64,000 nucleotides of DNA from Argopecten irradians (lineage: Eukaryota; Mollusca; Bivalvia; Pectinida; Pectinidae), in contig NC_091134.1 of NCBI RefSeq assembly GCF_041381155.1, forward strand, positions 59,241,467 through 59,305,466. The letters are read 5' to 3'. Numbering within the stretch: position 1 is the first letter of the stretch; each line of letters starts with the position of its first letter. The notes beneath the pieces are model-generated. The model did not search any database. It saw nothing but the letters and a program-made list of their open reading frames with translations, and had not been told where the DNA came from. This document shows, in pieces, positions 5,701 to 14,700 of the stretch. The translations under genes and the position numbers were made by a program.

Positions 5701-8700
5701 CTCTATCTATGCTGTATGCATATTGAAAAGACTGCTATACCATAGATTTCTAGAAATGTTTCATTTTAACTTGAGGGACTCATATTTTTGGTAAAAAGAA
5801 ATAATAGTAAAAAAAAAAACAACTGACGACAACGAAATACTAATAATTCTAAAAACTAATTGATGATTGATAACAATACACCAGCAATGTACTCAAATCC
5901 ATTTAGTTTGTGTTTAGTTTTGAAATAAAACAGTAGTGTACTTTATTCACTATTTTATTCATTTTTTTTTAATTTCCCTCATTTAATGCTATTCAAAAAT
6001 TGTTTTTGTTAGATTTAATTGCATATTGTGAAGTTTTAATTCTAAACTGAACTGTGATACACTTACCTTCAACACATGTAACAGTTTGCCGTGATGAGAG
6101 TCCCAAACCTTGAGAGTACAATCGTTCACAGCCGTCACCACTAAGTTATCATCCAGGTTCCAAGCAACCATAGTGACACGTGGCTTCTGTGACTTGTCCT
6201 CTGTTTCTGGTTTTGGACAACTACATGAACAGTAGAGAATAAATACATAACCATTATACAGAACACAGTAGTTTTGTATTAACAAACACATGCAACACAA
6301 AAACTGGAATGCCACTCCCCCTCACCAATTAAACTTCCTTTGAAATAGATTCTAAAAGAAAAACTGTGACACTGCACATCCGGTTATAAGTACTTCCCAG
6401 ATAAACTTACAAACCAATGCCAAGATATCACAAACAATTAGATGCTAAGACAACACTGTTTTAATTCATTAAAGGATTTTTGCATGAACTAACCGATTAA
6501 TAGCAAAACCTAATTAATAGCAAAAACTGTCCAAACTGACAAATGGTAGTTTTTCTGTCAAAATTTCTTTTAATATCAAACACAGTTTGGCAGTTATGTT
6601 GAAACTTCCAATCTTCTTCCTCTACATACCTAGGTAATCTTGTTGACATTGACAGGATGATGGACTTCCATTCTTGTCTATCAAAGCGCCAGATGCGAGC
6701 TGTGCCGTCCCTACTCCCACTGACAAACCTTTCACCACTATTACTGTAGCAGATACTGTCAACTCGGTCCTGTAATGATGATGAAAATGGAGTCAATTGT
6801 AGCAATTTATTTACAACAACCTTTATTAATATACATGTGCTGTACTGGCCTTTTGTGTAATGAAAGTGGGTGCATGTACTCAGTGACTTACATTCGTAAC
6901 CACTTTAATGTCCCAGCCACTGAATATATACGAAAATTACAAAGTCAGCTACAAGAACAATACAACCATTTTAAATCTTAAAGTTGAATTGCCATGAAAA
7001 AAGTTACTAGGCAAGATGAAGTGAAAGTATTTTGAACCAAAAAGATTTTATGCAGCTTTATGTATACTTGTACGAATTTAAGTGAACACAATCTTGTGTT
7101 GGAAAATAGCTATACTTACAGTATGAGCCTCTAATTCACATATCTTTTCTGGCGTAGTGACATGTAGAAAATATACTCTGATCACATGATCAGCACTTCC
7201 TGTGGCCAGGAAAACACCCCCTGGACTGAACGATGAGCACAACATCTGGGCTCCGGCTCGTGATCTCTCAATAAACTTGGCTGGTTTCGGGCTGGAAGTG
7301 TTAAAGATGCATGCTGGTTAAATATATCACTTACTTTTGTTAATTTAATCTTTCATTGAGTAATAAACTTTATACATCAAACAAAGTATTATATAAACAA
7401 ATAAACTGTCTTGTCATTTAATTGTCTATAGTATGACTAATATATTATGAAGAGCTCTTATTTTAAATGTCAATGTATATACAAGATCTGATGATACTAC
7501 TGTCAACTGTTACAGGTATCTTTACTAAAGGGAAATGTTGTGAGAATGTGACCTACTTAAATTTGTTTGTGGTGACATTCCAGGTCCAAAAACATACACA
7601 GCCATCTCCACCAGTGGAGGAAAGTATGCGGTGCTCTCCCCTGGCCTGAGGGCAAAACTACAAATAAACATCATATCAAGTAAAATAAATAAAACAAGAG
7701 CTGTTGGAGAACAGCAAAGCTCGCCTATTCAGAAGAAGTTGATGTTCAAGTATTTACTATTTAAACATGGAAATATGACATATTAACAGACTCAAAAACC
7801 TCCTAAAGGGCCCCAAATTGGTTGTATTATCATGTTCAGCATCCATACATATTAGTAAAATAAAATCATAAACATTTATGATGACTTAAGCTTAAAAACT
7901 AGACAAAATAGAAACTTGCTCAAAAACTTTAACATGGAAATATGACAAATTAACAAACTCAAAAAAAAAACCCTAAAGGGCCCCAAATTGGTTGTCTTAT
8001 CACGTTCAGCATCCATACACATTAGGAAAATAAAATCATAAACATTTATGATGACTTAAGCTTAAACAATAGACAAAACAGAAACTTGCTCAAAAAATAA
8101 AATCATAAACATTTATGATGACTTAAGCTTAAACAATAGACAAAACAGAAACTTGCTCAAAAACAAGAGGCCCAGAGGGCCTGTATCGCTCACCTGGTTT
8201 GTAATGCCAAGTAATGTTCTGAATACAGGTTCATTGTTTCTTTTCTGAAGGAATTTTAATATTAACCTCTAAATCCCCTATTAGGCCCCACCCCTCCTGC
8301 CCGCAGGGGGTCAGAGCCAAAATTTATACAAGTTCTGTTCCCCTTCCCCCAAGGATGTTTGTGGCCAAATTTGGTCACAATCCAAGCAAAACTCTAGGAC
8401 AAGTAGCAATTTATAGGATTTACCTCTATTTCCTCTATTGGGCCCCACCCATCCTGCCCCTGGGGGGCCAGAGCCAAAACTTACACAAGTTCTGTTCCCC
8501 TTCCCCCAAGGATGTTTGTGGCCAAATTTTGTTACAATCCATACAGAACTCTATGACAAGTAGCGATTTAAAGAATTTACCTCTATTTCCCCTATTGGGC
8601 CCCGCCCCTCCTGCCCCCCGGGACCAGAGCCAAAATTTATACAAACTCAGTTCTTATTCTCCCAAGGATATTTCTGGCCAAATTTGGTTACATTCCATGC

Positions 8701-11700: not shown

Positions 11701-14700
11701 ACGTAAAATGGGACTCCAATGCCAACGCTGACGCCGGGGTGACACATTAGCTCTCCCTATTCTTCGAATAGGCGAGCTAATTACAAATCAATAACACAGC
11801 TGTGGGCCAATCAAACTGTTAAAAGTATAGAATCTATCTGTTTTGCTTTAACACCTAGCCATACACTATACATTAAAATTAAGTATTACATGACATGCTG
11901 TCTTACCTGTAAAGAGGTTATCATCCCTGTATGGGCCTGTAGCACAGCTAATGGAGCTTTGGTCCGTAAACACCACACTCGAATGATCTTATCACAACTA
12001 CCCGAGGCTAATAATGTGTTTTCAAAGTTCACAGCAATGTCAGTAATCTCAGAGTTATGACCCCTTAGTGTATCAATCAGTCGCCCACTTGCTGCGAACC
12101 AAATCTTGATGAGGGCATCATCAGCACCCTTAAAGCAAAGATAATGTGATCAAATGAAAGTCATTTTCATAAAGCATTATAATTTTTTTTCTTTTTTTTT
12201 TTTGGTGCAGTAAATAAATAACACAAAATGCAATCACACATATAACAAAATTTCACTATTTGCTCCTTTACATGATAATGTTGTTACACATAGCCTATAT
12301 ACAATTTAGTTTGATAGTTTACTCAAAATCTTAACGCACGATTAAAATAAATTTTTAAAACATTCATTAACTCTTCTCAACTTTATAAATCACATGCAGG
12401 TATATTCTCATGCTAACAATAGTAACTTACAGTGAAGATGTACTGGCCAGTCCTATCAAAGGCTACACAGTACACAGCTGATAGATGCCCAAGCTTTCTG
12501 GCATGCATGTTCACTTTTGAGAAGATGAAGATGGGGCAGATGAGGTCTCTTCGACTCTGTCCCGTCATCTCGCGTGCTTTTGTTACATGGCCTGTGAACA
12601 AAACAGATTCACAATCGGCGTTAAGTAGAAATAAAGAAATAACAATTAACTGATACATAGGGATCCAATTGCTTATTTATTATCATAAATATATACCAGG
12701 TATGTTATATTGTAATAAAATCTGTTTTTTGAATACTTACTTCAATCACAATAAAATGTTCGACCTAGGATATAGGATCTTATAACAGTGCTTTTTCTTA
12801 ATTTTTCAGGTGTCATGTCATGATATAGACTGTATCTAACAGAATATATTTTAAGATCGTATTGACCATCTGAGTTGATTTACAGTCAAAGCTATGACCA
12901 CTTCAAGTGCTCCAGATAAGTTTTGGAGGGTGGGTAATTGTACTCAGCCTACTCATACTTTTGAAAAGTAAGTGTACCACTCTTGACTATGAACCCAAAT
13001 TTTAACAGATATATGTCCCAAAAAGTGGTTATATAAGATGTGTATAAACACACAAATATACAAGACATACTTAGAGAAGGAACAACTAGGTTTATAGGTG
13101 GCTGTAGAGGGCGATGATGATGTGTGGCTATATGTCGTTCTGGTCGCCATCGCGGATGGTGCACAGCTGCAAATATAGATTTCAACAATTACTATACAGT
13201 ACTAAAAACATGGTTATAAAGAACCTCTAGTGACCATCAAACTTATTTCGTTATAAGCATATTACCTAAAGTCATTATACATGTATCACAATCATCTAAC
13301 AGGAACCTTGGCAGCGAAATAAAAATCATATGTTTTACTTATCAACCTTTTTATCATGCAACAACCTGGAAGACATTAACATTTGTGTTTGCAATATACA
13401 TCCTGTGTTTCTAACCAAAGTCTTTATCTCCAAACTAAATCTGAATATTTTGCTATAGAAGGATTTTTTTGTCTTCACATTGGTTTGGATATGCACATGC
13501 TTTCAACCCACATTCTGAAGCAAAAAAAAAATTGGTTTCTTGATATATGTGCACGTTCTCTAATTTAAATATCAAAATTTCTCACAAAAAAAATAATATA
13601 TATATATATATATATGACTCACATTCTTTGGTCCTCAGAAGAGACTGTTGTCCAGCTCCTAAAAGTGATTGTAATCCTGTGGCAGATGAATTGATTTCCT
13701 TGTCCAGAAGGGGGCCCAAGCGTTGACATATTTGCAAGAGGTGACTTGATGATATGTGACGATTGAGATTCACCTAAATTATTTAAATTTATTATTTATT
13801 GAAACATGTTTTCAAAATACTTTATTAATTAAGAATAAAGCACAATAATCACTTTTAACTATCAGTTAAATGCGTTTGGTAAAATCACTCCGAACAAGTT
13901 TTTCAACATGACCACGTGCTTATGTTTACTATCAATACAGGTGGACCAATCAGCGTACAGAACTGTTGGGCATTTCCTTTTCTCAATGGATATTAATAGC
14001 CACATGACCTTTGTCGATTTGCTGCGATTTCATTGGCTTAGCACGCCACGTTCCACGATGACGTCACGCATATGACCTTGCACATTTGATATGATAATGC
14101 TTAGGAAAATTATTCGAATTTGGACGTAAATAGTCTAACAACGCTAATTTTCTCAATAAAACCTAATAAGATAAATTAATGAGATTGAAATTCTGCAGAA
14201 AATAATGGCATCGACGGAGATGACTATGAAAGACAAAATTTTCATAAAATTCAGCATCCTTCCCACATGTCAAGTTTATCCACTTTCACATTTCTTACCA
14301 AATTTTCGTAACTTCTTTCATGTTGTCTGCCTTCCCAATCAATTCTTTTTGGTAAAAGCTGCAAAACATAACATTTTCAATATCACCAAAATTCCGTGCA
14401 CACGTCAAAAAATGTGGCAACAAAGTGAAATTATTATAAATCAAGCTTCAAAATTTCATAAAATCACCTCGTTAGGTACGGAAAACACCGTAAAGAGCGC
14501 GTAATTTGTAAATAAAGTCGACAGCACAACGACTCGACTTACCTGGTGTTCTTTCAGCTCCTGCCTCAACGCCTACAAAAGAAAATGAAATCATCAGTAA
14601 CTAGAATAAAAACTGATTTCAATTAATCGACAAAATGACTTGCACCTACCTCTGAAGCCCGCTGACATGGTCCTGATGCGAGGAACCGGGAGATTAGGAA

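Follow-up and report, generated by a model that had tools for sequence, protein, structure and literature searches.

HINE-like elements with satellite-like arrays in a 64-kb stretch of the Argopecten irradians genome, and two truncated copies flanked by target duplications

A 64,000-nucleotide stretch of the Argopecten irradians genome (NC_091134.1, positions 59,241,467 to 59,305,466 of the forward strand, here called the window) contains six repetitive elements of three families, A, B and C, whose structure points to HINEs, non-autonomous transposons of the Helitron2/Helentron group. Each is built around a tandem array of 155-170-bp units; these arrays, claimed in an original prediction made from the letters of this DNA alone, are real. 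The same prediction held that the elements encode no protein, and judged by eye this is so, the open reading frames (ORFs) that overlap the arrays being array translations rather than genes. The window has 57 listed ORFs of at least 90 amino acids. A Pfam search on 39 ORF queries (38 distinct stretches) returned long interspersed nuclear element (LINE) domains (endonuclease and reverse transcriptase), WD40, biotin-protein-ligase and CS, with no Rep or helicase among these queries. Neither an Rfam family at gathering score nor a tRNA was found in the window.

The elements are read throughout in the HINE convention, with TAGC at the start and CTCTTGT at the end, which reverses the polarity originally given. 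All six then follow one order from 5' to 3': TAGC with a subterminal inverted repeat (subTIR; GCTCACCTGG, GCTCGCCTATTC or GCCCACCA, depending on the element) facing its own inverted copy, the array, the 3' copy of the subTIR, a palindrome, CTCTTGT and T's. A GTCC microsatellite precedes the array in A and C. Family A can be laid out as TAGCTCACCTGGCCC-GAA-GGGCCGGTGAGC, GTCC repeats, array, CCAGGTGAGCGATACAGGCCC-TCT-GGGCCTCTTGT; family B as TAGCTCGCCTATTC-GAA-GAATAGG, array, GAATAGGCGAGCTTTGCTGTT-CTCC-AACAGCTCTTGT; and family C as TAGCCCACCATC-ATCA-GATGGTGGG, GTCC repeats, array, TGGTGGGCACCAAGATCCCTCTGGTATCTCTTGT. In short form the end pair is TAGCTCACC...CTCTTGT. The 5' hairpins of A and B are looped by GAA (CCC-GAA-GGG and TTC-GAA-GAA), and their 3' palindromes read GGCCC-TCT-GGGCC and GCTGTT-CTCC-AACAGC. 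Placement of the subTIRs is asymmetric, 2 nt from the 5' end and 24-26 nt from the 3' end, and the core GCYCRCC and CTCTTGT are common to all six elements. The predicted ACAAGA start, GCTAA end and paired motif were recovered in every element, as ACAAGAG, GCTAA and the pair. The predicted hairpins fared less evenly. That on the GCTAA side is present in four of the six elements and eroded in A3 and C2; shuffles as stable as the 5' subTIR hairpin number 0/300 for A1 and A2, 1/300 for C1 and 3/300 for B. The small hairpin on the ACAAGA side stands out from shuffles in B (7/300 as stable) but not clearly in A (20-32/300) or C (171/300 and 50/300).

Several comparisons place these ends relative to chance. 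The longest exact inverted match between the two ends of one element is 10 nt in A1, A2 and A3, 13 nt in B and 8 nt in C1 and C2, against 4-7 nt between ends of different families. In 20,000 draws of shuffled ends, the own-end match is reached in a fraction of 0.00085 (A2), 0.00005 (B) or 0.01 (C1). Among 20,000 random 30/50-nt window pairs, ∼2.6% reach 8 nt and ∼0.3% reach 10 nt, so that the family C match is weak on its own. The pattern TTAGCYCRCC occurs six times in the window, always at the elements (mean 0.21 and maximum 2 in 100 dinucleotide shuffles), as does CTCTTGTT (mean 2.8, maximum 7), although both tests are partly circular because the patterns were derived from the elements themselves. 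A scan of the window for the bare layout, defined as inverted 9- or 10-mers with a downstream hairpin near T's, gave 180 and 56 matches, respectively, versus 98-170 and 29-52 in ten block-shuffled controls, with observed matches merged and control matches not. The bare layout is barely commoner than chance and the scan discriminated poorly; the case therefore depends on recurrence across copies, not on layout by itself. Elsewhere, four end patterns had no match in viral contigs, and one pattern had two matches in bacterial and archaeal genomes (Variovorax and Rhodospira), regarded as chance. When literature text was searched for the end letters, the titles among the matches listed concern other subjects.

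Recurrence was followed for A and B in the 846-Mb assembly (1508 contigs); family C is known from its two window copies. Family A copies were chosen by similarity to window positions 8163-8600 (438 nt, the 3' end of A1), a choice that selects for the 3' end and not for the 5' end. Family A gave 5002 first-look candidates and family B 1181, 40 of each were scored, and 28 (A) and 8 (B) of the 39 others were fetched. Both ends lie in the fetched piece for 26 of the 28 A copies (L067 and L072 stop short of the 5' end), and 23 of these 26 have TTAGCTCACCTGG together with CTCTTGT. The other three are L069, with an altered 5' start, and L055 and L059, which lack the 5' subTIR. Both ends are present in all eight B copies, six of which have an exact subTIR of at least 13 nt; in L073 and L075 mutation shortens it to 7 and 9 nt. 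The claim that the two ends covary as a pair is upheld in that the motifs match within a family, in the window as well as in the majority of copies fetched. Co-evolution is only faintly indicated, because there are three families and all share the core GCYCRCC. Moreover, Helentron families are already delimited in the literature by matching subTIRs of 11 bp or more (PMC4067079), so that paired ends are no new inference; the C match (8 nt) and the A match (10 nt) fall below that length. As a separate observation, ACAAGAGGTTCATGGGTC at 40945-40990 resembles a decayed A-type 3' end on the reverse strand, with no partner end.

Insertion sites were scored at 35 intact copies (23 A, 8 B and the window elements A3, B, C1 and C2). 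The longest direct repeat in the flanks is 0-6 nt, and randomly paired flanks reach at least 6 nt in 134 of 3000 cases; no target duplication above chance is seen. A1 has no direct repeat and A2 one of 2 nt. The target is T-rich, with a T after the element in 31 of the 35 copies and a T before TAGC in all 35, the latter partly by construction. Empty sites give a similar picture by eye. A2 interrupts a B unit cleanly at a run of A/T, and the tandem repeat itself provides its empty site. L045 (in a host minisatellite), L047 (in an A array), L079 and L060 (in an apparent C-type unit) fit exact insertion after a T, and for L052 and L071 the comparison leaves one or two extra T's. A1 and A2 precede the same word in neighbouring B units. 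Over the last 230 nt, A2 differs from A3 at 11 positions and from A1 at 18, and A1 differs from A3 at 21; since A2 is nearer to A3 than to A1, these mismatches make two insertions likelier than local duplication.

Among the closest described systems are the Cg_HINE elements of the Pacific oyster. The available part of that account describes a 5' subTIR with a complementary inverted repeat, a GTCY/GTCC microsatellite, central repeats mostly of 140-180 bp, a 3' subTIR followed by a palindrome, a T-rich target with no target-site duplication, and families with related or unrelated modules (PMC7492417), a likeness of published layouts and not of letters. HINE-Mo and DINE-1 are similar in their 3' palindrome, TT insertion, variable T number and lack of target-site duplication. 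Their subTIRs lie 2-4 nt from the 5' end (and are palindromic in HINE-Mo), but they measure 12-15 bp versus matches of 8-13 nt here, and the 3' subTIR lies 38-60 nt from the 3' end versus 24-26 nt here (as excerpted from PMC4067079). Asymmetric inverted repeats are also described for the Fusarium oxysporum Helitron2 elements FoHeli1-5. FoHeli1-2 have a 5' hairpin TCAGCC GAA GGCTG with the GAA loop seen in A and B, and FoHeli3-5 end in CTCCTGT, close to CTCTTGT. These fungal elements differ in encoding Rep-Hel and in having the GAA hairpin and CTCCTGT in separate subgroups, and the available part of their description mentions no satellite-like array (PMC5148889). The likeness hints that the end signals may be old. 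Pearl elements of bivalves, with central repeats of ∼160 bp, have been re-filed as non-autonomous Helentrons, as told in the available part of PMC7492417, and can be set beside A, B and C by description rather than sequence. Helitron-like elements are abundant in oysters, according to the available parts of two further reports (PMC7992393, PMC10294476).

Taken together, the subTIR pair, the inverted repeat beside the 5' subTIR, the GTCC repeats of A and C, the central array, the 3' palindrome (plain in the letters of A and B), the T-rich target and the absence of duplication at intact copies lead us to classify the six elements as HINEs, non-autonomous Helitron2/Helentron rolling-circle transposons with satellite-like arrays, which are a known kind (probability about 0.9). 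We infer that a Rep-helicase and a single-strand intermediate are involved. A Rep-helicase from an autonomous relative would recognize the subTIR at both ends, at the 5' end folded into a hairpin with the adjacent inverted repeat. The end of the transferred strand would be marked by the 3' palindrome together with CTCTTGT, and this strand would be placed after a T in a T-rich site with no target duplication. The canonical Helitron (Helitron1) was considered and rejected: it starts with 5'-TC, ends with CTRR-3' and inserts between A and T, as opposed to TAGC, CTCTTGT and insertion after a T.

The Helitron2/Helentron assignment made in the original prediction thus agrees with most of the structural features tested, while several observations weigh against it. 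Family B has no GTCC microsatellite, and the 3' palindrome of family C is imperfect and weak. At A1, ∼39 bp of the B unit is missing between two CTCAAAA words, so that this element offers no clean empty site. L069 has no duplication in spite of its altered 5' start, and two A copies, described below, bear target duplications. In addition, no autonomous Rep element sharing the ends of A, B or C was found, in a search that stopped short of the ends of both Rep groups followed. The genome has 104 matches to Helitron_like_N, several of them parts of one gene and 59 scoring at least 89 bits, compared with none in 14 control genomes. The pattern T[TA]AGCYCRCC is absent from 30 Rep loci of 2.9-3.6 kb each. 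One Rep group lies on contigs C4 and C9, and its C4 copy is followed downstream by tandem repeats of ∼1.5 kb; in another, L082-L085 (two loci on contig C11), the reading frame stays open for at least 3.5 kb upstream of the Rep match and consists in part of charged repeats. Locus L037, in which an A-type 3' end (near position 1336) lies ∼160 nt from a Rep match, was rejected as the partner; insertion of an A copy into a Rep gene is the likelier reading. In the available part of the oyster study, likewise, none of ten autonomous elements could be related to the HINEs (PMC7492417).

The two copies with duplications are both truncated at the 5' end. In L055 the element begins within the 5' hairpin, and the 20-nt sequence TAAATCAATACACATCATCG is present in each flank. 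In L059 it begins inside the subTIR and lies between two copies of the 9-nt sequence TTCTGTTCA; randomly paired flanks reach 9 nt in 3 of 3000 cases. Both 3' ends are exact, with CTCTTGT followed by T's. Empty sites were sought with the two flanks joined through one copy of the repeat. For L059 this gave one paralogous site, on contig C15 (92% over 1-112), which has TTCTGTTC once with the ninth base different. Empty paralogues exist for L055 as well: of 40 scored places (among 947 candidates), 39 span the joint and one is its own flank. Clear target duplications, which the original prediction had named as counter-evidence, do therefore occur, and among the copies read they occur only at these two without a 5' subTIR. 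At title and abstract-opening level we met no report of truncated Helitrons with duplications, which is not a claim that none is in print.

These duplications bear on two alternatives of very different standing. The elements might be miniature inverted-repeat transposable elements (MITEs) moved by a DDE transposase, with the inverted repeats as ordinary terminal ones. Inverted motifs at both ends, the lack of coding capacity and the two duplications would agree with this, as would the original description of Pearl as a MITE (told in the available part of PMC7492417). Terminal inverted repeats with a fixed-length duplication are not what is seen, however: the motifs are subterminal and placed asymmetrically, direct repeats at the 35 intact copies measure 6 nt at most, some empty sites show no duplication, and the two duplications are unequal in length and found where the 5' subTIR is missing. 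We regard a MITE origin as highly improbable. A more serious alternative, to which we give somewhat less than even odds, is that L055 and L059 are chance patches of break repair outside the normal pathway. There are just two cases, short microhomology is possible by eye at both 5' joints, and L069 lacks a duplication even though its 5' start is altered. Against such patching, both copies keep an exact CTCTTGT and T's, as normal insertions do; this point is tempered by the selection for 3' ends, under which ragged 3' joints would be invisible. Within the HINE reading, these two copies suggest that the 3' joint was made by the normal route and the 5' joint by another. A speculative extension, which we consider rather doubtful, is that the joining steps are separable: the 3' CTCTTGT would be joined first, where a run of T's is nicked, and a precise, duplication-free 5' joint would need the 5' subTIR. 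A strand without this signal would have its second joint made elsewhere, perhaps by microhomology, and would so generate a target duplication, as in 5'-truncated LINEs.

A separate question is whether A, B and C, described in the original prediction as unrelated in sequence, share an origin. That description fails for A and C, which have a common array-start module of ∼58 nt running from just past the microsatellite into the first repeat unit. Its alignment score is reached by 0/500 shuffles for all four pairs of A2 or A3 with C1 or C2, and the A2-C2 score by 0/1000 window segments; for the two A1 pairs, in which the A1 segment was cut to begin further in, the counts are 102/500 and 10/500. 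Comparison of array units (13 pairs in both orientations, i.e. 26 tests with 300 shuffles each) gave 0/300 for A1-C2, 4/300 for A3-C1, 0/300 (minus) and 5/300 (plus) for the C1 unit against an array at 52.4 kb, and at least 16/300 for all remaining pairs. The B unit matched nothing and shows no similarity to A or C. The 5' ends (36 nt) are matched by 0 of 2000 shuffles for A-B, 17 for B-C2, 96 for A2-C1, 410 for A2-C2 and 447 for B-C1, and the 3' ends (26 nt) by 43 for A2-C1, 51 for A2-C2, 272 for A2-B and 1918 for B-C1; the A-C 3' similarity is reached by 1 of 62 other TCTTGT sites. On these alignments, the ends of A and B look related, as do the array starts of A and C. If the three families had instead reached one end plan separately, with ends that are not homologous, the isolation of the B array and the chance-level values for A-B 3' ends and B-C1 5' ends would be expected, and the available part of the oyster account describes certain Cg_HINE elements as unrelated in every module (PMC7492417). 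This is unlikely in view of the core GCYCRCC and CTCTTGT in all six elements, the A-C module, and the values for A-B and B-C2 5' ends and for both ends of A and C.

Table 1. Positions of the six elements and of selected end signals in the window
Feature	Positions	Strand	Remarks
A1, family A HINE	8163..10547	(-)	TAGC start at 10547; 157-bp array, ∼14 units; nested in B
A2, family A HINE	10644..11566	(-)	∼5 units; nested in B
A3, family A HINE	29977..31968	(+)	156-bp array, ∼12 units; 5' hairpin eroded, subTIR pair intact
B, family B HINE	7694..11779	(-)	170-bp units; 771 bp minus the two nested A copies
C1, family C HINE	38273..39452	(+)	155-bp array
C2, family C HINE	39884..40845	(+)	155-bp array; 5' hairpin eroded, subTIR pair intact
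A1 5' subTIR GCTCACCTGG	10536..10545	(-)	
A1 3' subTIR CCAGGTGAGC	8188..8197	(-)	
A1 terminal CTCTTGT	8163..8169	(-)	Identical heptamer closes A2, A3, B, C1 and C2
B 5' subTIR AGCTCGCCTATTC	11766..11778	(-)	
B 3' subTIR GAATAGGCGAGCT	7718..7730	(-)	
C1 5' subTIR GCCCACCA	38275..38282	(+)	First arm of hairpin GCCCACCATCATCAGATGGTGGG
C1 3' subTIR TGGTGGGC	39419..39426	(+)	

Other repeats share the window. Two dispersed copies of another array, with units of ∼146 bp, lie at ∼26870-27100 and at 52377-52770 (-); this unit and that of family C both contain CCAAGATGGC.GCCA and are alike at the right end (GACAC.ATATCTAATTAATTTC). Positions 48832-52470 (-) are occupied by a LINE-type element whose ORFs encode endonuclease and reverse transcriptase; the 146-bp array lies on its upstream side. 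The element at 1231-2724 is a separate one. It has perfect terminal inverted repeats of 15 bp (CAGGGGTGTACAATT), TATAT on both sides and CACTAGCCC hairpins, and resembles a non-autonomous DNA transposon that duplicated its target site. A duplicated region at 27409-29503 (spacing of ∼1.46 kb) holds a 263-amino acid ORF with no Pfam and no PDB match, and a 32-bp tandem repeat at 22713-23068 has 11 copies with 98% matches.

The integration of Helitron2/Helentron elements is unsettled, and copy-rich families such as A and B, with 5002 and 1181 first-look candidates, could reveal the insertion rule when truncated and intact copies are compared. If true, separable joining could explain part of the disagreement among earlier reports over duplications at DINE-like elements. 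The shared TAGCYCRCC and CTCTTGT provide a handle for finding the autonomous partner. HINEs spread satellite-like DNA, and in A and C related array starts stand behind different end signals.

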